Of a DNA stretch of 64,000 nt, positions 27,339 through 34,930 are shown one piece after another. Numbering within the stretch: position 1 is the stretch's first letter; every line of letters starts with the position of its first letter. This stretch comes from Micromonospora sp. NBC_01813. GTDB lineage: Bacteria; Actinomycetota; Actinomycetes; Mycobacteriales; Micromonosporaceae. The stretch lies in the NCBI RefSeq assembly GCF_035917335.1, contig NZ_CP109067.1:1676501-1740500 (forward strand), given 5' to 3'. Under the pieces are notes generated by a model that ran no database searches, was not told the origin of the DNA, and saw only the letters and a list, made by a program, of their open reading frames with translations. The position numbers and the translations under genes are program-made.

Positions 27339-27599
27339 GTGGCGAGTGTCGCCGAGGTCAAGTCCGCTATCGAAGCCGCGATCATGCAGGTGTCGGAAGG
27401 CCAGGCTGCCGTTCAGGCCGCCAGCGAGAAGATCGCCGAGGCCCAGCAGAGTCTCGCTGCGGCCTTCGAGGGCAGCGGCCACGAGGCGGTCGGCGCTGCC
27501 CAGGCGGCGCTCTTCCAGGCGAGTAGCGAGCTTGAAGAGTGCCTGGCCGCCACCCTCGCCGCCGTCGAGCAGGCCCAGACCTACTCCGCGACCCTGTAG
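27339..27599 (+). CDS. Small two-helix protein, WXG100-sized, first gene of FtsK operon
   Basis: Protein of 86 residues rich in Ala, Glu and Gln. It is predicted as a helical hairpin: helix 1 about 3-43, a turn at EGSGH (44-48), and helix 2 about 49-80. There is no tryptophan, no signal peptide and no membrane helix. Size and hairpin shape recall WXG100 substrates of type VII secretion, but neither the WxG turn nor a C-terminal YxxxD/E signal is present. The GTG at 27339 has a strong AGGAGG site nine bases upstream. Six bases separate its stop from the next gene. The function is unknown; the pairing with an FtsK-type ATPase gene is the main clue. Confidence 0.85.
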   Translation: MASVAEVKSAIEAAIMQVSEGQAAVQAASEKIAEAQQSLAAAFEGSGHEAVGAAQAALFQASSELEECLAATLAAVEQAQTYSATL

Positions 27600-27605
27600 C
27601 CAGGC

Positions 27606-28517
27606 ATGTCCCTCGTCGAGAACCTCGCCGCGCGGGTCCGGGCCACCGCCGACGACCTGCCGGTGGGACAGATCGCCCTGGCGGTGCAGCGGCTGCGTGC
27701 CGCGACCGACCTGCTCATCTGGATACGCCAGGAGTCCGCCGACCCGCTGGCGGTCCCACAACTCGCCGGCGCGACCGAGCACGCGGAGCAGGCTGGGCAC
27801 GCGCTGCGGGTCGCCGCGCAGTCGGTCGCCGACTACCTGGCGGCGATCGGGGTGGACGGCTCGGCGCCAGCGGACGACTCCTGGCGGGCGGCGCTGGAGC
27901 GCCGCGACGAGACCGCTCGGCCACACGGCGGTGGCCCGGCCGCCGGGGCCACCGCCGCCCGGCTCGGCAACTGGTGGGCGACCCGGGTGGCGGAGCTGAC
28001 CGACCTCGAACCGACCGGTGCCGCAGAGCCCGATCAGGCCGCGGCCGACACCCCGGACCTGCTGCGGCGGGTGGCGGCGGCGGTCCGGCGTACCGACCGC
28101 GACGGGCTGCGCCGCGAACTGGCCGCCGTGGCCGCGCCCACCGGCCTGGACCTGGCCGCGATCACGCCGCCGGTGCTCCGCCGACTCACCGGTGATCTGC
28201 TCGACCACGAACCCCGCGCCGAGGACCTGCGCAAGCTCGGCACCGCCACCTCCGGCCGGGTGCGTGAGCTGCTACCAGGCATGCCGCAGCAGGTGCTGGA
28301 CACCCTGCTCGCCCGACTGTGCCGGGTCCCGGTCGACGAGCGCGCCGGTGGCGCGGAGAACGCCGATCGCGGCGCCGACCCGCCACCGCCACCGCACCCG
28401 GCGGACTCAGCGGTGGCCGGAGCGGTCCTCACCGGAGTGCTGCTCCAGCTGCTCGATCGGGATCCGCAGACCCTGCACCCGGAGCAGCCGTCCACTCACC
28501 GGGGACACGATGGCTGA
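27606..28517 (+). CDS. Unknown helical protein of the FtsK operon
   Basis: Protein of 303 residues that I do not recognise. The first ~85 residues form an amphipathic helical region (VGQIALAVQRLRAATDLLIW, then a long helix around HAEQAGHALRVAAQSV). A Pro/Gly/Ala-rich spacer follows (about 88-120), then a second helical domain around LRRVAAAVRRTDRDGLRREL. The C-terminus is Pro-rich and ends with a hydrophobic helix (AVAGAVLTGVLLQLL) too short to call a membrane anchor with confidence. Its last eight bases overlap the start of the FtsK-type gene, so translation is coupled. A structural partner or adaptor for the ATPase is plausible but speculative. Confidence 0.8.
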   Translation: MSLVENLAARVRATADDLPVGQIALAVQRLRAATDLLIWIRQESADPLAVPQLAGATEHAEQAGHALRVAAQSVADYLAAIGVDGSAPADDSWRAALERRDETARPHGGGPAAGATAARLGNWWATRVAELTDLEPTGAAEPDQAAADTPDLLRRVAAAVRRTDRDGLRRELAAVAAPTGLDLAAITPPVLRRLTGDLLDHEPRAEDLRKLGTATSGRVRELLPGMPQQVLDTLLARLCRVPVDERAGGAENADRGADPPPPPHPADSAVAGAVLTGVLLQLLDRDPQTLHPEQPSTHRGHDG

Positions 28518-31191
28518 CGCGCGGACCGAGCTGATCGCCAGGGTCCGGCGGGCACTCGGCCAGGCCCGGGCGGCGGCCCGGTACCGCCTCGACCTGGTCG
28601 AGGCGGATCTCGCCGCCGCAGAGCAGCAGCTGAAGCGAGTTCGACGGGCTGCCGACCAGGTACCGCCCCGGGCCGCGGCGCACCGCGATCAGCGGTTGGC
28701 CGAGCTCGCCAAGCGATATCAGGACGAGATCGACTCGGTGGCGCGGCGGGCGGTCACCGCTGTGACAGAGGCTGCACCGGGAGCCGCCGCGCTGGACTGG
28801 CCCGGCTGGCGGCCCACCCCGGCCGGACGGGCGGAACCGCCGGGCCTGACCCGGATCGGGCTGACCGGGCTGACCGACGGCCCGACCATCGCCGCGCTGG
28901 TGCCGCTGCTGGACCAGGGACACGTCGTGTTGGACGGCGACGACCGGGCAGGTTGCGACGCGGTGATCTCCGCGCTGCTGTTGCGCATACTCGGCCGGGC
29001 CACCCCCGGCGCGGTGCGGTTGACCGGATACGACCCGGAACGACTCGGCGGTGGTCTGGCCGGCTTCGCCCCGCTGGCCGGGCCGGGCCTGCTGACCTTC
29101 GCCGGCCCCGGTGGGTTGAGCCGCCACCTGGACGAGCTGGTCGATCACGTCCGGCGGATCAACGAGACAGTGCTGGCCGGCGAGTACGGGTCGCTACGGG
29201 AATTGGCGACGGCCACCGGGCGCCGGCCGGAACCGTGGCGGATCGCCGTGCTGCTGGGCAGCCCAGGTGAGGAGCTGTCCCGGCACGAACGCGCGCAGCT
29301 CGACCGGATCGCCCGAGCCGGCGCTGCCTGCGGGGTCCACCTGCTCGTCCGGGGGATCGCGCTCGGGCCGGGTCCGACGATGACCACCATCTCGGTCTCC
29401 GCTCGCGTCGCCAGAGTCAGCGGCTACCCTCAGTTGCCCGTCCGGCTGGATCCGCCGCCGCCGGCCGAGTTGGTCACCCGTACCTGCCGGACGATCGCCG
29501 CCGCGATGTCAGCCGGACCGACGCCGGCGGTCTTCACCGACCTGCTGCCTGAGCAGGAGTGGACCGAGGTGGCGACGACCGGAATCACCGCTCCGGTGGG
29601 CGACAGCCCGCAGGGGCGACCGGTGGAAGTCACCCTGAGCGACTACCCGCCGCACGCGCTGATCGGCGGCCCGTCCGGCACCGGAAAGACCAATCTGATC
29701 TACGCGTGGATCGGTGCCCTCGCGGCCCGGTACTCCCCCGCCGAGTTGGAGTTCTACCTGCTGGACTTCAAGGAAGGTGTGTCGTTCGCCCGGTTCGCAC
29801 CCGGACGCCGGGACCCGAGTTTCCTGCCACACGTCAGGTTGGTCGGGGTGAACGTCAACACCGACCGGGAGTTCGGCCTGGCGATGCTGCACTTCCTCGG
29901 AGCGCAGCTACGGCGGCGGGCCGACGCCGCCAAACGGCACGAGGTCACGAAGCTCGCCGAACTACGGGCGGAGGACCCACACGGGCGGTGGCCTCGAATC
30001 GTCGCGGTGATCGACGAGTTCCAGGTGCTGCTCTCCGGCAACGACGCGCTGGCCACCGAGGCCGCGACGCTGTTGGAGGACCTGGCCAGGCGGGGCCGTT
30101 CCCAGGGCATCCACCTGATCCTCGCCTCCCAGGACGTCTCCGGCATCCAGGCGCTGTGGGGGCGTACCGCGTTGGTCGCCCAGTTCGCGTTGCGGATCGC
30201 GCTACCCAAGGCCCGCCGAATCCTGCCGGAGACAAACACCGCGGCCGAGGCGTTACCGCGCCATCACGCGGTGGTCAACTCCGAGTCGGGTGCGGCCGAG
30301 GCGAACCGGATCGTCCGGATTCCGGCCGCCAGCGATCGGGATACCTGGCAGGAACTGCAGCACCGGTTGTGGCGGCGACGCCCGGAAGGGCTTTCCGCGC
30401 CGCGGTTGTTCGACGGTGACGCGGTGCCCCGGTTGACCGAGGCCCCCGACTATCTGGGCCTGTCCGCCGCCGACGGTGCCCCGCGCGAGCCGGTGGCTCT
30501 GCTGGGCGAGACGATCGACGTACTGGCCCGCTCCGCCCGGTTGGGTCTGGCGCGCGCACCAGGGCGCAACCTGGCGGTACTCGGCACCCGGGTGGACGAG
30601 GCGTGCGCGGTACTCGACGCCGCAGCCCGCTCACTGGCCCGGCAGTACCCGCCCGGCGCCGCCCGGTTCGACCTGGCCTGCCTCGACCCGGACGCGGAGG
30701 CTCCCGCCCGGCGCCTGCACGCGGAGTTGCCGCCCGGAACCGGCCTGTACGACCTCGACACCGTGTCCGGGCTGCTGGCCGATACCACCGACCGGCTGTC
30801 GGCCGACATGCTGGACGGCCCGGTACGGCCGCATTTCCTGGTGCTGTACGCGGTGGACGCCGCCGCAGGTCGCCTGGCGGCGAAGTTCGCCGGCAGGTCG
30901 GGGCTCGACCGACTGCGGCGAGTACTGCATCTGGGCCCGGAACGGCACACCCACGTGCTGGGCTGGTGGCGCGGTGTGGCCCGGCTCCGCGACGATCTCG
31001 GCGGGATCGGCTCCCGGACCGATCAGATCGGCGCCTGGGTGGCGCTCGACGTACACGGATCCGAGCTCGGGCCGCCGCTGTATCCCCGCGCGGGTGGGCC
31101 GGCCTGGTATCCACGGCCGTGGCGGGCGCTGTACTTCGACCGGACGGTGCACCGTAGCGCTGAGGTCGTCATCCCGTACGGCCTGTCTTGA
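28510..31191 (+). CDS. FtsK/SpoIIIE-type ATPase with three tandem modules
   Basis: Protein of 893 residues. An N-terminal coiled coil (about 5-80) is followed by an FtsK-like module with no intact P-loop (about 115-290; GHVVLDGDDRAGCDA at the P-loop position). The central module is intact, with Walker A GGPSGTGKT (about 385-393), Walker B IVAVIDEFQ (about 497-505) and the FtsK-type LILASQDVSG. A third degenerate module (about 660-890) ends in RALYFDRTVHRSAEVVIPYG. Three tandem modules recall EccC/EssC of type VII secretion, but no membrane helix is present; the next gene may supply it. The ATG at 28510 lies inside the previous gene's end; the stop overlaps the next start (TGATG). Alternative: a DNA-handling translocase. 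Confidence 0.9.
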   Translation: MADARTELIARVRRALGQARAAARYRLDLVEADLAAAEQQLKRVRRAADQVPPRAAAHRDQRLAELAKRYQDEIDSVARRAVTAVTEAAPGAAALDWPGWRPTPAGRAEPPGLTRIGLTGLTDGPTIAALVPLLDQGHVVLDGDDRAGCDAVISALLLRILGRATPGAVRLTGYDPERLGGGLAGFAPLAGPGLLTFAGPGGLSRHLDELVDHVRRINETVLAGEYGSLRELATATGRRPEPWRIAVLLGSPGEELSRHERAQLDRIARAGAACGVHLLVRGIALGPGPTMTTISVSARVARVSGYPQLPVRLDPPPPAELVTRTCRTIAAAMSAGPTPAVFTDLLPEQEWTEVATTGITAPVGDSPQGRPVEVTLSDYPPHALIGGPSGTGKTNLIYAWIGALAARYSPAELEFYLLDFKEGVSFARFAPGRRDPSFLPHVRLVGVNVNTDREFGLAMLHFLGAQLRRRADAAKRHEVTKLAELRAEDPHGRWPRIVAVIDEFQVLLSGNDALATEAATLLEDLARRGRSQGIHLILASQDVSGIQALWGRTALVAQFALRIALPKARRILPETNTAAEALPRHHAVVNSESGAAEANRIVRIPAASDRDTWQELQHRLWRRRPEGLSAPRLFDGDAVPRLTEAPDYLGLSAADGAPREPVALLGETIDVLARSARLGLARAPGRNLAVLGTRVDEACAVLDAAARSLARQYPPGAARFDLACLDPDAEAPARRLHAELPPGTGLYDLDTVSGLLADTTDRLSADMLDGPVRPHFLVLYAVDAAAGRLAAKFAGRSGLDRLRRVLHLGPERHTHVLGWWRGVARLRDDLGGIGSRTDQIGAWVALDVHGSELGPPLYPRAGGPAWYPRPWRALYFDRTVHRSAEVVIPYGLS

Positions 31192-31853
31192 TGGCTGATT
31201 CCTACCCCGTGCTGATCCGCCGGTTGGCTGAACTCGCCGCCGGGGTGCAGGCCCGCCGCGACGAGGCCCAGCACTGGTACGCCGACCGCTGCGCCGGCGC
31301 CCAGGCGGCGGTGGAGCAGGCGGAGGCGCGACTGGCCGACCTGCACCAGGCTCGGGTTCAGGCGAGCCTCGAGGTGGAAGAGGTCGACCGGGAAGCCGCC
31401 ACCATCTGGACCGAGTTCGCTCATCGACTCGGCCCGGTGGCCGATCGGTTCGGCGGGGTGCCGGCACCGACGTCGGGCCCCGCCACGGTGGGCCCGGACC
31501 AGGCAGACCGGTGGTTGACGGCGGCTCGGGGGCTGGTGGAGCGGTCAGCCGAGGCCGAACCGCTGCCCCGAACGGCCTACCCTGCTCTCGCGCTGTTCGG
31601 CGCGCTCGGCGCGGCCGTCGCGTTCGGGTTCGCGGCCGTGGCCCGGTGGACGGGCGAGCGCTACGGCGGTGACCTGGCGGTCGGCATGCCGGTGATCGCG
31701 CTGGTCGTCACGCTGCTCGGACCGCTGTTCGGGTTGGCACCGGCGAAGTTGCTCACCGACCGCCGGCACGCGGTGCTGGATGTCCGGAGCGTCGCGGTGG
31801 TCCTGGTCACCGGTCTGGTGACGACGGCGACACTGGTCGCCGTGTTGCGCTAG
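31191..31853 (+). CDS. Membrane protein with N-terminal coiled coil, last gene of FtsK operon
   Basis: Protein of 220 residues. The N-terminal ~75 residues are a charged coiled coil (VQARRDEAQHWYADRC, AAVEQAEARLADLHQARVQ). Three hydrophobic segments follow at about 130-150 (YPALALFGALGAAVAFGF), 160-180 and 198-218 (VAVVLVTGLVTTATLVAVL). The ATG overlaps the ATPase stop by one base, implying equal expression. It may anchor the soluble FtsK-type ATPase to the membrane, matching coiled coil to coiled coil; that is an inference. No homologous family is recognised. Confidence 0.82.
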   Translation: MADSYPVLIRRLAELAAGVQARRDEAQHWYADRCAGAQAAVEQAEARLADLHQARVQASLEVEEVDREAATIWTEFAHRLGPVADRFGGVPAPTSGPATVGPDQADRWLTAARGLVERSAEAEPLPRTAYPALALFGALGAAVAFGFAAVARWTGERYGGDLAVGMPVIALVVTLLGPLFGLAPAKLLTDRRHAVLDVRSVAVVLVTGLVTTATLVAVLR

Positions 31854-31903: not shown

Positions 31904-33169
31904 TCAGCCGCCGACAGCGATCGCTTCGCGCAGCAGCCGACGCGCGAGCACCAGCCGGTCCGCGTCGTCGTCGAGGCCCGGCAGGTCACCGACCCGAACG
32001 CCAGGGGATTCCAGCACGGCCTGCAACGCCGGGACGCACTGCGGCGGAAAGCTGACCGTACGGTCGAACACCTGGAGGTCGACCGGACCGTCGGGTTGCG
32101 CCGACAGCCGCCAGCGCAGCCCCGGCCGGCGGGTGATGCGGTCGTCGGCGGTCAGGCAGCGGATGAGTTCGGCCTGTGCCAAGGGGCGCAGCGGGGCCGG
32201 GCGGGTGGCCGGCCAGCTCCGACGGCGTAGTTCAGCGGCGATCCGCTGCGGCGTCACGGTGTTCAGCCAGTCGCGCAGCGCGGCGATCGTCTCGGTCGCC
32301 TCGGGCTCGATCCCGGCCGGATCGGTCACGTCGACGCCAAAAGGCAGCGACGCGCGTAGCCGCGGATCGTCGACCGCCAGGTCCAGCAGCGTTTCCACCA
32401 TGGTGAAGCGGGTCCACGCCCGTACTCCGACGGTGAGATGCAGCGAAGGATCCTGCTGGGCGGTGGCGCTGTGCAGCCATCCGCGGGGCAGGTAGAGCGT
32501 GTCGCCGGGTTCGAGCACAGTGTCCAACGCCGGTGCGGAGTCGGACTGGGCGGCTACCTCGTCAGCCCGCCCCGACCAGGTCTGCCGGGGCAACGGGTCC
32601 GTCAGCACCGGCTCGTGGACACGCCACCGCTTCCGACCCTGGACCTGCAGGACGAACACGTCGTGGGTGTCGTAGTGGGTGGCGAAGCCCTGGTTGCCGG
32701 CAGGCGTGAGGTAGGCATTGACCTGAAGCGGTTGTCCGAGTACACCGGCGAGCTCACCGGTGAAGTCGATGATCGGCGGCCAGAGTCGGTGCAGACCCTG
32801 CAGGACGAGGGTGGCGCCATCGGCGTACAGGCTCAGCACCCGCTCATCCAGGACCTGGTCGCTGATCTCGGCACCGGCGCCGCCACCGCCGGTGTATGCC
32901 GCCTCCGCAAGGACCTCGCCGTCGCGAGCGACCCGGAGAAACGGCGTACGCAGCCCGCTGCGGCTGAGCAACTCGTCGGCGGCGGCCCGATCGAGCAGAT
33001 CGGTGAATCCGGCCGGGTTGGCCAGGTCGCCTGCCCGGGACAGCAGCGGGGCGCGGCCCCAGTGCGCGGCGGCGAACTTCGCCGGTTCCATCGCGATGCA
33101 GCGGGCCAACGCCGGGCGGTGGGGTGCGCCGCCCGGCGTACCGGATGAGAGTTCGGTGCGACCTGTCAA
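31904..33169 (-). CDS. JmjC/cupin-fold 2-oxoglutarate and iron-dependent oxygenase
   Basis: Protein of 421 residues of the ribosomal-oxygenase-like (cupin_4/JmjC) family, which hydroxylates residues of proteins or peptides. The iron triad is visible: His165 and Asp167 in FATHYDTHD, and His233 in PRGWLHSA. A Lys near 180 (QGRKRW) is suited to bind 2-oxoglutarate. The C-terminal half (about 250-421) is a helical/winged domain as in this family. The start is a TTG at 33169 overlapping the stop of the repeat-peptide gene (TTGA), so translation depends on that gene; the TTG has no ribosome site of its own. The upstream peptide is the obvious candidate substrate. Family assignment is firm, substrate is inference. 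Confidence 0.9.
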   Translation of the reverse strand: MTGRTELSSGTPGGAPHRPALARCIAMEPAKFAAAHWGRAPLLSRAGDLANPAGFTDLLDRAAADELLSRSGLRTPFLRVARDGEVLAEAAYTGGGGAGAEISDQVLDERVLSLYADGATLVLQGLHRLWPPIIDFTGELAGVLGQPLQVNAYLTPAGNQGFATHYDTHDVFVLQVQGRKRWRVHEPVLTDPLPRQTWSGRADEVAAQSDSAPALDTVLEPGDTLYLPRGWLHSATAQQDPSLHLTVGVRAWTRFTMVETLLDLAVDDPRLRASLPFGVDVTDPAGIEPEATETIAALRDWLNTVTPQRIAAELRRRSWPATRPAPLRPLAQAELIRCLTADDRITRRPGLRWRLSAQPDGPVDLQVFDRTVSFPPQCVPALQAVLESPGVRVGDLPGLDDDADRLVLARRLLREAIAVGG

Positions 33170-33438
33170 CGCCGGTTGGCCCCGCCGTCGGCACCGCCGT
33201 CGTGACCGGCCGGATTGGCCCCACCGTCGGCCAGACCTTCCCGGGCCTTGGGCCCGGCGCTGCCGTCGGCACCGCCGTCGTGCCCGGCCGGATTGGCCCC
33301 GCCGTCGGCGAGTCCCTCCCCCGGGGTGGCCTCGCCGTCGGCACCGCCGTCGTGCCCAGCCGGATTGGCTCCACCGTCGGCAGGACCATGCCCGCTGGCC
33401 GACCCGGTGCTACGAATGTCGTCGTCGTCGAGTTTCAT
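33166..33438 (-). CDS. Repeat peptide with acidic leader, candidate oxygenase substrate/RiPP precursor
   Basis: Protein of 90 residues. An acidic leader-like start, MKLDDDDIRSTGS, is followed by three perfect copies of DGGANPAGHDGGADG at residues 21-35, 45-59 and 71-85. The linkers are EATPGEGLA and SAGPKAREGLA, and the protein ends GGANRR. It is rich in Asp, Gly, Asn and His, with no Cys, no hydrophobic core and no signal peptide. The ATG at 33438 has an AGGGGG site. Its stop overlaps the TTG of the JmjC oxygenase gene. The repeated Asn, Asp and His are residues JmjC enzymes can hydroxylate, so it is plausibly a precursor with three modified cores. Such small repeat proteins occur in actinobacteria without known function. 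Confidence 0.8.
   Translation of the reverse strand: MKLDDDDIRSTGSASGHGPADGGANPAGHDGGADGEATPGEGLADGGANPAGHDGGADGSAGPKAREGLADGGANPAGHDGGADGGANRR
33184..33378 (-). repeat. Three 45-bp coding repeats in the peptide gene
   Basis: Repeat units lie at 33334-33378, 33262-33306 and 33184-33228. They encode identical 15-residue units and are very similar in DNA. The two spacers differ in length (27 and 33 bases). Confidence 0.85.
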
Positions 33439-33523
33439 GCTGCCCCCTGCGGGTTGGTCGACGCCCGCCGGTCCGTGCGACGGTGCGATCGTGCCCGGCA
33501 CCGGTACCCGCAAAGAAGTACCA

Positions 33524-34543
33524 CTAACCCCGCAACGGTGCGCAGCTGTCGCGGACGACCAGTTCGGTGGCGAGTTCCACCCGTGGGGTGTCCAGCGGCT
33601 CGCCCTGCGCCAGACGCAGGACGGTACGAGCGGCGAGCAGGCCCATTTCGGCCAGCGGCTGGCGCACGGTGGTCAGCGGCGGCGACGACCACCGTACCTC
33701 CGGCAGGTCGTCGAACCCGATCACGCTGACGTCGTCGGGCACCCGCAGACCACGTTGGCGCAGTGCTTCGTATGCCCCGAGGGCCATCTGGTCGCTGGAG
33801 GCGAAGATCGCGCTCGGCCGGTCGTCGAGTGCCAGCAGGGCAGCGGCACCGCCGAAGCCGGACTCGTGATAAAAGTCGCCGGGGACGATGTACTCCGGGC
33901 GCAGGGGGATCTCCGCTGCTTCCAGTGCCGCCCGGTACCCGTCTAGCCGGGCCCGGCTGCACAGCAGTCGGGGCGGGCCGGCGATGAAGCCGATCTGCCG
34001 GTGCCCCAGTGCGATCAGGTGCTCGGTCGCCCGCAGTCCGCCTGCCCAGTTGGTGGCGCCGATGGTAGGAATGTCCAGGCTCGGAACGCCGGCGGGGTCG
34101 ACCAGGACCATCGGCACATTGAGCCGGCGGAGCTCGGTGTGCAGTGGCGGTGCCAGCTCGCTGGTGACCAGGATGACCCCGTCGGTTGCCCTGGTGCGCA
34201 GATTCTGCAGCCACTGGCGGGTCGAGGTGGACCGGCGGTGGATGGCCGACACCACGGTCCCGACGCCGGCCGCGTGGGCGACGTCCTCCACTCCTCGGAT
34301 GATCTCCACCGCCCAGGGGCTGTCGAGGTCGTTGAAGACGAGGTCGATGAGGCTGGCACCGGCCCGTGACCGGGTGGCCCGCCGCCGGTAGCCGTGCCGG
34401 CGCAGTAGCTCCTCGACCCGCTCACGGGTCTGCGGCGCGACATCGTTGCGGCCGTTGAGCACCCGCGACACGGTCGGCACCGAGACGCCCGCTTCCTGGG
34501 CGATCGCGGTGATCGTGATCCTGCGTCCTTCGTCGACCGTCAC
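33524..34543 (-). CDS. LacI-family transcriptional regulator
   Basis: Regulator of 339 residues. The N-terminal LacI helix-turn-helix is ITITAIAQEAGVSVPTVSRVLNG, followed by a hinge-like RVEELLRRHGYRRR. The periplasmic-binding-protein-like sugar-sensing domain includes IDLVFNDLDSPW, VDPAGVPSLDIPTIG, YHESGFGGAAALL and AIFASSDQMALGAYEAL. The GTG at 34543 is preceded by AAGGAG with good spacing. It is divergent from the GH3 glycosidase, with two palindromes in the shared 387-bp region, so it most likely represses that gene until a sugar ligand appears. Confidence 0.93.
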   Translation of the reverse strand: MTVDEGRRITITAIAQEAGVSVPTVSRVLNGRNDVAPQTRERVEELLRRHGYRRRATRSRAGASLIDLVFNDLDSPWAVEIIRGVEDVAHAAGVGTVVSAIHRRSTSTRQWLQNLRTRATDGVILVTSELAPPLHTELRRLNVPMVLVDPAGVPSLDIPTIGATNWAGGLRATEHLIALGHRQIGFIAGPPRLLCSRARLDGYRAALEAAEIPLRPEYIVPGDFYHESGFGGAAALLALDDRPSAIFASSDQMALGAYEALRQRGLRVPDDVSVIGFDDLPEVRWSSPPLTTVRQPLAEMGLLAARTVLRLAQGEPLDTPRVELATELVVRDSCAPLRG

Positions 34544-34930
34544 GGCAGCTCCTTCGTCGAGGCTCCAGGGTACGGCCGTAGGTGTGGCCAGTCGGTCCGG
34601 CACGTCGGCTCCGGGCATATCTTGCCGCAGCGGGAGGAGCGACCGGCATCGACCGCAGCGTCAGGGCCGTCGCCTCCCGTGTCGACCCGCCACCGAGACC
34701 TTGCGGAATGTTCCGGAATTTCCGCCGCCGCACCGGCTGCGCCGGCCCTACCGCCCCGTGCCCCAGTATGCCTACCTGCGCGATCATACCCCCGCACGAT
34801 GCCCGCAAGTTGTCGGCCGATGGACCTCGACGAGACCGCAAATTTCCGGAAACATGGCGGAAAACATGGTCGGGTGGCCCGGTGGCGCAGGGACCGGGCT
34901 GGCCCGGCGACGACCGACAGGAGACTGCCC
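34544..34930. promoter_or_regulatory. Divergent regulatory region between LacI and GH3 genes
   Basis: This 387-bp region has no gene of its own. It contains TTCCGGAA at 34711-34718 (in AATGTTCCGGAATTTCC) and TTTCCGGAAA at 34843-34852 (in AATTTCCGGAAACATGG). Both have a central CG, as LacI-family operators do, and are related to each other as inverted copies about 133 bp apart. The spacing could permit looping. Confidence 0.5.

Follow-up and report, generated by a model that had tools for sequence, protein, structure and literature searches.

A gene for a short aspartate-rich repeat peptide, lying directly upstream of a gene for a NO66-like JmjC oxygenase, forms a pair that is real and widespread in many soil actinobacteria. 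We favor, on balance, the reading that this 2-oxoglutarate oxygenase hydroxylates the repeated Asp residues of the ribosomally made peptide, as a RiPP-like system of two and often three genes. The pair studied here lies in a stretch of 64,000 nt from Micromonospora sp. NBC_01813 (NZ_CP109067.1), called the window below, and coordinates are positions in this window. Its features are as follows.

33443..33448, minus strand: AGGGGG, ribosome-binding-site-like, 4 nt ahead of the peptide ATG; GCAGGGGGCA in 7/7 same-genus loci
33166..33438, minus strand: Asp/Gly/Ala-rich repeat peptide, 90 aa, ATG start, putative precursor or substrate
33412..33438, minus strand: acidic leader box MKLDDDDIR, present in 7/7 same-genus peptides
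33334..33378, minus strand: repeat copy 1 of DGGANPAGHDGGADG, residues 21–35
33262..33306, minus strand: repeat copy 2 of DGGANPAGHDGGADG, residues 45–59
33184..33228, minus strand: repeat copy 3 of DGGANPAGHDGGADG, residues 71–85
33166..33169, minus strand: TTGA, in which the peptide TGA stop overlaps a possible oxygenase TTG start; likely translational coupling
31904..33169, minus strand: JmjC_2 (PF08007) oxygenase, NO66-like, 421 aa, presumably 2-oxoglutarate/Fe(II)-dependent
32411..32728, minus strand: catalytic JmjC region, Pfam match residues 148–253
32675–32677, 32669–32671 and 32471–32473, minus strand: Fe triad H165, D167 and H233
31904..32197, minus strand: C-terminal winged-helix domain, weakly RRE/PqqD-like

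The initial annotation had described three perfect repeat copies in the 90-residue protein, and these were recovered at residues 21–35, 45–59 and 71–85, identical in protein sequence over 15 residues each and differing in DNA only by synonymous changes. Across the window, 601 stop-to-stop frames have a length of 60 aa or more, and a 15-mer present three times is unique to the peptide frame. Pooled over seven same-genus genomes, pN/pS was 0.14 for the peptide vs 0.36 for the oxygenase, and the window peptide is under purifying selection. The overlap of the peptide stop with an oxygenase TTG was also confirmed: a TTG or GTG lies across the stop (TTGA/GTGA), open and in frame with the oxygenase, in 7/7 same-genus loci. 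The silent-only repeat differences, this conserved overlap, and the low pN/pS together argue that the peptide is a real, selected gene; a chance low-complexity ORF was ruled out by the synonymous-only differences, the pN/pS of 0.14, and the wide pairing described below. An RTX-type Ca-binding repeat was also considered and set aside. The window peptide matched no Pfam or NCBIfam family at up to E 10, and seven related precursors matched no NCBIfam family at up to E 1. The TTG in TTGA is likely the oxygenase start in use, and coupled translation would yield peptide and oxygenase together.

The window oxygenase matched PF08007 with an E value of 1.8e-31. The intact HxD...H iron triad claimed for it stands up, as H165, D167, and H233 are invariant in 16/16 aligned orthologues and align with HYD...H of NO66. 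An AlphaFold model of the oxygenase (pLDDT 87.8) matched human NO66 (Z 28.4, rmsd 6.9 over 385 residues, 28% identity) and then MINA53 and YcfD, and the whole-length ROX architecture, including the C-terminal winged helix, is present in the predicted structure. Human NO66/RIOX1 and MINA53/RIOX2 and Escherichia coli YcfD share this whole-length fold, winged helix, and Fe triad but, going by the titles of their structure entries, have ribosomal proteins as substrates, with His or Arg as the target, whereas the window oxygenase is paired with an Asp-repeat peptide. That the closest solved enzymes are His hydroxylases (NO66, MINA53) or an Arg hydroxylase (YcfD), and none an Asp hydroxylase, counts against the reading that we favor.

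Predicted alone, the C-terminal domain (pLDDT 92.3) best matched the winged helices of MINA53 and NO66 (Z 10.0–13.3), followed by a methyltransferase (Z 8.2) and then PqqD (Z 7.4, rmsd 2.5 over 82 residues); TbiB1 scored Z 7.0. Ranks 15–50 (36 rows) comprised 20 RRE-bearing proteins, 4 YcfD, and 12 others, where we took as RRE-bearing the rows for PqqD, TigE, TbiB1, ThcOx, TbtB, MibB, NisB, lasso B1, the McbB-complex chain, PbtF, LynD, TruD, and MccB. The RRE matches lie at Z ∼5–7.4, a range that can mean merely a common arrangement, and the non-RRE carbamoyltransferases GdmN/NovN, at Z 6.1–7.0, are level with them. A Pfam search for an RRE in the C-terminal domain gave no match in 15/15 members, and the strand-helix order of the domain fits the rule of Bregman et al. 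(PMC12710340). These matches are no more than suggestive of a weakly RRE-like domain. The peptide would dock on the oxygenase probably through this winged helix and, where present, the acidic leader.

A search of 394 genomes of the class gave 63 close oxygenases (at least 362 bits): 58 with a DGGA-repeat peptide upstream, 3 (L230, L231, and L233) with an Asp-rich peptide that has a similar leader and other repeats, and 2 from one genus (L228 and L229) with neither. The reverse search with a peptide profile (E ≤ 1e-4, at most 13 candidates scored per genome) returned 65 matches in 53/394 genomes, and all 65 lay directly upstream of an oxygenase on the same strand. Peptide and JmjC gene, which the initial annotation had expected to co-occur, are thus found together nearly without exception (61/63 and 65/65), and none of the 65 peptide homologues stood apart from an oxygenase. 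Here a short putative precursor gene is linked to the gene of the enzyme presumed to modify it, as in RiPP systems. Most of the weak extra peptide matches in the 61 relatives considered below (E ≤ 0.1) were to long frames, one being G041:C349 (E 4.4e-4, 32% identity, 972-aa frame); as candidates for oxygenase-free peptides they were judged low-complexity chance, and none was seen at E ≤ 1e-4 in the 394 genomes. On the oxygenase strand at L228 (2660–2980) and L229 (upstream of 3001) there is an acidic small ORF or frame end with GPTIEPGA/GPTVEPGA, which is maybe a replaced substrate.

Some oxygenase match at E ≤ 1e-30 was present in 125/394 class genomes. We examined the surroundings of 90 class matches, namely the complete set of 63 at or above 362 bits and a further 27 of lower score (at most 266 bits), the latter a sample taken by hand among the matches listed, with G154 (254 bits, contig end) left out. 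The 27 lower matches had no DGGA peptide, and seven had Asp-rich repeat peptides (e.g., DADGTDGDATD), six of them behind a DDDM/DDDI-like leader. Among 61 relatives, the genome of the window included, 36 had an oxygenase match at E ≤ 1e-3, and a repeat peptide lay upstream in 30/30 relative loci examined, with L018 appearing frame-broken. Further matches in the relatives carried DGGA peptides in G053 and G049 (L081 and L084) and Asp-rich variants in G041 and G058 (L082 and L083); no Asp-rich repeat peptide was found upstream of the weaker JmjC relatives L085 to L089. By eye, the weak JmjC paralogue at L085 lies beside a SPASM-type radical SAM-like protein and a small peptide, and that at L089 beside a LanC-like protein; JmjC oxygenases of this kind may have a part in other RiPP clusters as well.

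A scan of named genomes covered the best 80 loci of at least 564 relatives, spread over Micromonospora, Salinispora, Actinoplanes relatives, Geodermatophilus, Blastococcus, Modestobacter, Actinokineospora, Amycolatopsis, Kribbella, Motilibacter, and others. A regular expression picked the peptide in 76/80 of these loci, with several starts truncated and a wrong pick at L136, where the peptide is nevertheless present; the misses were L102, L165, and L167, with only 65–143 bp of upstream sequence, and one broken frame. L158 and L139 look frame-broken. A family of the same order, probably Mycobacteriaceae, supplies 15 of the 63 close class loci (L183, L186, L192, L195, L198 to L207, and L235) and has 2–3 repeats of the type ADGGSNPEGHDGGADGTA. 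At the level of the phylum, 27 of 296 genomes matched the oxygenase at E ≤ 1e-55. Fourteen of 17 loci from other classes had an Asp-rich small ORF behind an [LV]-x-D/E-E/D-D-I leader, and 13/17 had a Suc_Fer match; L287 and L292 are cut by contig ends, and L289 has a different repeat. The Asp-rich peptides of distant branches were either chosen by eye or taken as the upstream ORF with the most Asp, a choice that favors the Asp reading and makes the evidence from other classes weaker. In a midpoint-rooted oxygenase tree (94 rows of 107 loci, those without the extraction motif dropped), a branch with support 100/98 sets apart 60 rows, namely the 58 DGGA rows and the 2 no-peptide rows; L230 and L231 adjoin this group, and beyond them is a 17-row group of mostly Asp-variant loci.

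This distribution bears on whether the oxygenase acts on a ribosomal protein, as NO66 and YcfD do, with the peptide as its regulator or decoy. Whole-length similarity to NO66, winged helix included, would fit such a role, but the peptide gene is upstream in 61/63 close loci, and in other branches the oxygenase has a different small Asp-rich peptide as its neighbor, a pattern resembling that of an enzyme with its substrate; we consider a ribosomal-protein substrate very unlikely.

With the peptide taken as substrate, the next question is which residue would be modified. FIH and similar JmjC hydroxylases can act on Asn, Asp, and His. Asp was present in every one of the 128 unique cores of DGGA type (136 rows), while 78 were without Asn, 22 without His, and 15 without both, and 1065/1537 of the counted core Asp stand directly before GGA; this count is free of the leader filter, draws on 136/138 rows picked, and includes some cores that are cut or extend into upstream sequence. 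A curated set of 105 peptides, in which leader columns are biased because class rows were admitted only on a leader regex match and others were dropped by hand, gave 61 without Asn, 20 without His, and 13 without both, with 6–24 Asp per core, no Cys or Phe in any core, and Lys rare. In Geodermatophilus and relatives the unit is reduced to tandem runs of DGGA, and in deeper branches DGGA is lost and Asp with Gly, Ala, Ser, and Thr is kept. Since these branches swap DGGA for other repeats of Asp plus small residues behind a similar leader, Asp is the constant part. The simplest inference from these counts is that Asp, rather than Asn or His, is the best candidate target, although the constant Asp could serve acidity instead of being the modified residue.

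The version given in the initial annotation, in which Asn and His of each repeat are hydroxylated in the manner of FIH or NO66, draws on the nearest solved relatives being His hydroxylases and on the Asn that same-genus repeats keep in all but one repeat (Asp in one peptide). Against it, 4/7 same-genus peptides have Arg in place of His in one or more repeats, and the cores that lack Asn, His, or both in the counts above do not support either residue as a common target. We regard this version as quite unlikely.

The initial annotation had also called the acidic leader conserved, which holds for 7/7 same-genus peptides and about 43/58 class loci, but not for one branch whose repeats are the same. 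By regular expression, an LDDDDI-type box was found in 69/78 named rows and 42/58 class rows, some rows being mispicked; on the class rows the expression misses L176 and L180 and wrongly counts L221, and the corrected figure is about 43/58. About 15/58 class peptides, mostly in one 16-row tree branch, lack the box (starts such as MSEQNPEGPADGG) and carry the same DGGA-type repeats, and the DGGA peptide of L081 is also without it. The leader is therefore not essential to the pairing. The count free of the leader filter made us less confident of the leader and, to a small degree, of the favored reading as a whole. In deeper branches a similar leader is kept while the core repeats change; at L230 (3771–4121, minus strand) an MTLRDEDI leader precedes GGDADQGDSDSTQADPQGSDPAGTD repeats, so that the core is changed and the leader kept, and L083 is similar. 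A peptide that stays unmodified, as a disordered acidic metal buffer supplying Fe(II) to the oxygenase, would be in keeping with Asp-rich cores that have no Cys in the curated set and with a leader that one branch dispenses with. It leaves unexplained, however, why most loci have a leader that differs from the repeats and why Asp stands at set places in a fixed unit, and we rank it as the least probable of the readings considered.

A third gene, Suc_Fer-like and in the same direction, was present in 12/27 neighborhoods and in 51/63 close class loci. In the 12 it lies directly downstream in all but L083, where it is ∼8 kb away, and 3/3 of the Suc_Fer-like proteins tested matched PF06999. In the home family it was found beside the pair in 0/3 cases; no Micromonosporaceae neighborhood had it, several of these being short downstream. 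The protein is probably a [2Fe-2S] ferredoxin; we take Apd1 to be a member of the same family. Where present, it may keep the oxygenase iron reduced. A second redox-type protein adjacent in 51/63 loci would also suit a pathway in which hydroxylation is only a step and Asp is modified further, to aminomalonate, a dehydro residue, or a cross-link. Precedent exists in the two-enzyme cascade SmaO/SmaX of a graspetide cluster, which takes Asp through beta-hydroxy-Asp to aminomalonate (PMC13097080). There is, however, one oxygenase only in the present system, the Suc_Fer gene is beside the pair in 0/3 home-family cases, and the curated cores are without Cys and rarely have Lys; we think such further modification unlikely.

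Under hydroxylation of Asp, the reading that we favor, the JmjC center with Fe(II), O2, and 2-oxoglutarate would oxidize, one after another, the Asp residues in the DGGA/DGSA units, with the beta carbon as the most likely site, and would leave a peptide with many beta-hydroxy-aspartates. Such a polymer would be expected to bind hard metals, e.g., Fe(III) or Ca(II). The peptide had been suggested to be cut into three products; this is not supported, as repeat number varies widely and there is no recurrent protease or exporter outside home-family synteny. In 27 neighborhoods (13.8–22 kb; ORFs from 70 aa upward; families counted when present in five or more other loci) no recurrent protease or exporter was found beside the pair. 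The only families recurring outside home-family synteny were the oxygenase and the Suc_Fer gene (12 loci), and those found in five to eight loci represent the shared synteny of the home family. That no exporter is linked to the pair points to a product that stays in the cell or is handled in another way; we speculate that it is whole or lightly trimmed and might act as a metal-binding or otherwise acidic polymer.

Other genes around the pair, and other small ORFs beside JmjC genes, were also seen. In the window, a LacI-like regulator gene (33524–34618, minus strand, named by eye) shares the strand of the peptide gene, with its end 85 bp upstream, and is divergent from a glycoside-hydrolase-like gene at 34622, also named by eye. 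Converging on the oxygenase (27339–31853, plus strand) are genes for an FtsK/SpoIIIE-family ATPase (28018–31191), an 86-aa small protein, and a membrane-like protein, and the neighbors on this side are kept in five or six other loci of the home family. On the oxygenase strand, the distant JmjC loci L245 (2709–2825), L246 (2643–2801), L249 (2638–2754), L256 (2700–2816), and L258 (2710–2823) have a small peptide upstream, of the type MDPxEVEVEDLxEVTSRDVTAGGDSDGTDSSSDFI, with a prolyl-oligopeptidase-like gene (named by eye); in some of them TetR-like and ABC-ATPase-like genes follow, which by eye resembles a more classical RiPP cluster. Upstream small ORFs with tails SDGGGTGRSDGND or SDGATGDSGENRDG were seen at the JmjC paralogues L254 (2823–2960), L257 (2822–2953), L259 (2630–2890), and L261 (2642–2761), and small ORFs with DPDP(S/T)D at L238 (2462–2833, also with Cys) and L240 (2711–2986), all on the oxygenase strand.

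JmjC action on ribosomal peptides and Asp oxidation by other enzymes are already known. BipG/BpmG, a JmjC enzyme dependent on Fe(II) and alpha-ketoglutarate, acts on the precursor of biphenomycin by hydroxylating ornithine (PMC12707348; PMC12257519). It resembles the present system, by description only, in joining a JmjC enzyme with a ribosomal precursor peptide; it differs in its Orn target and multi-enzyme cluster, where we find a compact pair and Asp repeats. Bregman et al. (2025) reported fish and algal proteins in which an RRE-like fold is joined to PF08007, and noted that JmjC homologues of bacteria occur in "RiPP-like genomic contexts" (PMC12710340); unlike the present pair, their RRE-JmjC proteins come, in the section consulted, with no described precursor family, repeats, leader, or Suc_Fer partner. 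In the corallotide (CorA/CorC) graspetide, a repeated core is hydroxylated by a 2OG oxygenase, as proposed here, but the oxygenase family is PF13640, the target is Lys, and a graspetide synthetase is involved (PMC13097080). PesHI (nitrilobacillins) and SmaO provide beta-hydroxy-Asp in a ribosomal peptide, the product type proposed here; PesH is, however, called an MNIO, and the word "JmjC" is absent from both main texts (PMC13060819, PMC13097080). The open-licence literature searched yielded no description of an Asp-repeat precursor with a NO66-like oxygenase and no occurrence of "DGGADGG." There is a fair chance that the peptide-oxygenase family is undescribed.

A stronger claim, which we hold to be doubtful, is that Actinobacteria make ribosomal poly-(beta-hydroxy-aspartate) peptides by means of a NO66-like oxygenase whose winged helix is a leader-binding RRE. 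If it were true, a common origin would link the RRE of RiPP enzymes to the winged helix found in human NO66/MINA53, the ribosomal oxygenases of eukaryotes would be kin to enzymes that make peptide natural products, and the peptide product would be the ribosomal counterpart of metal chelators that contain hydroxyaspartate. What emerges is a compact pair of an enzyme and its putative substrate, shared by many actinobacterial lineages, which gives bacterial NO66-like oxygenases an immediate, testable candidate substrate. The pair would offer a simple system for multi-site aspartate oxidation, and it bears on the kinship of ribosomal oxygenases and RiPP leader-binding domains.
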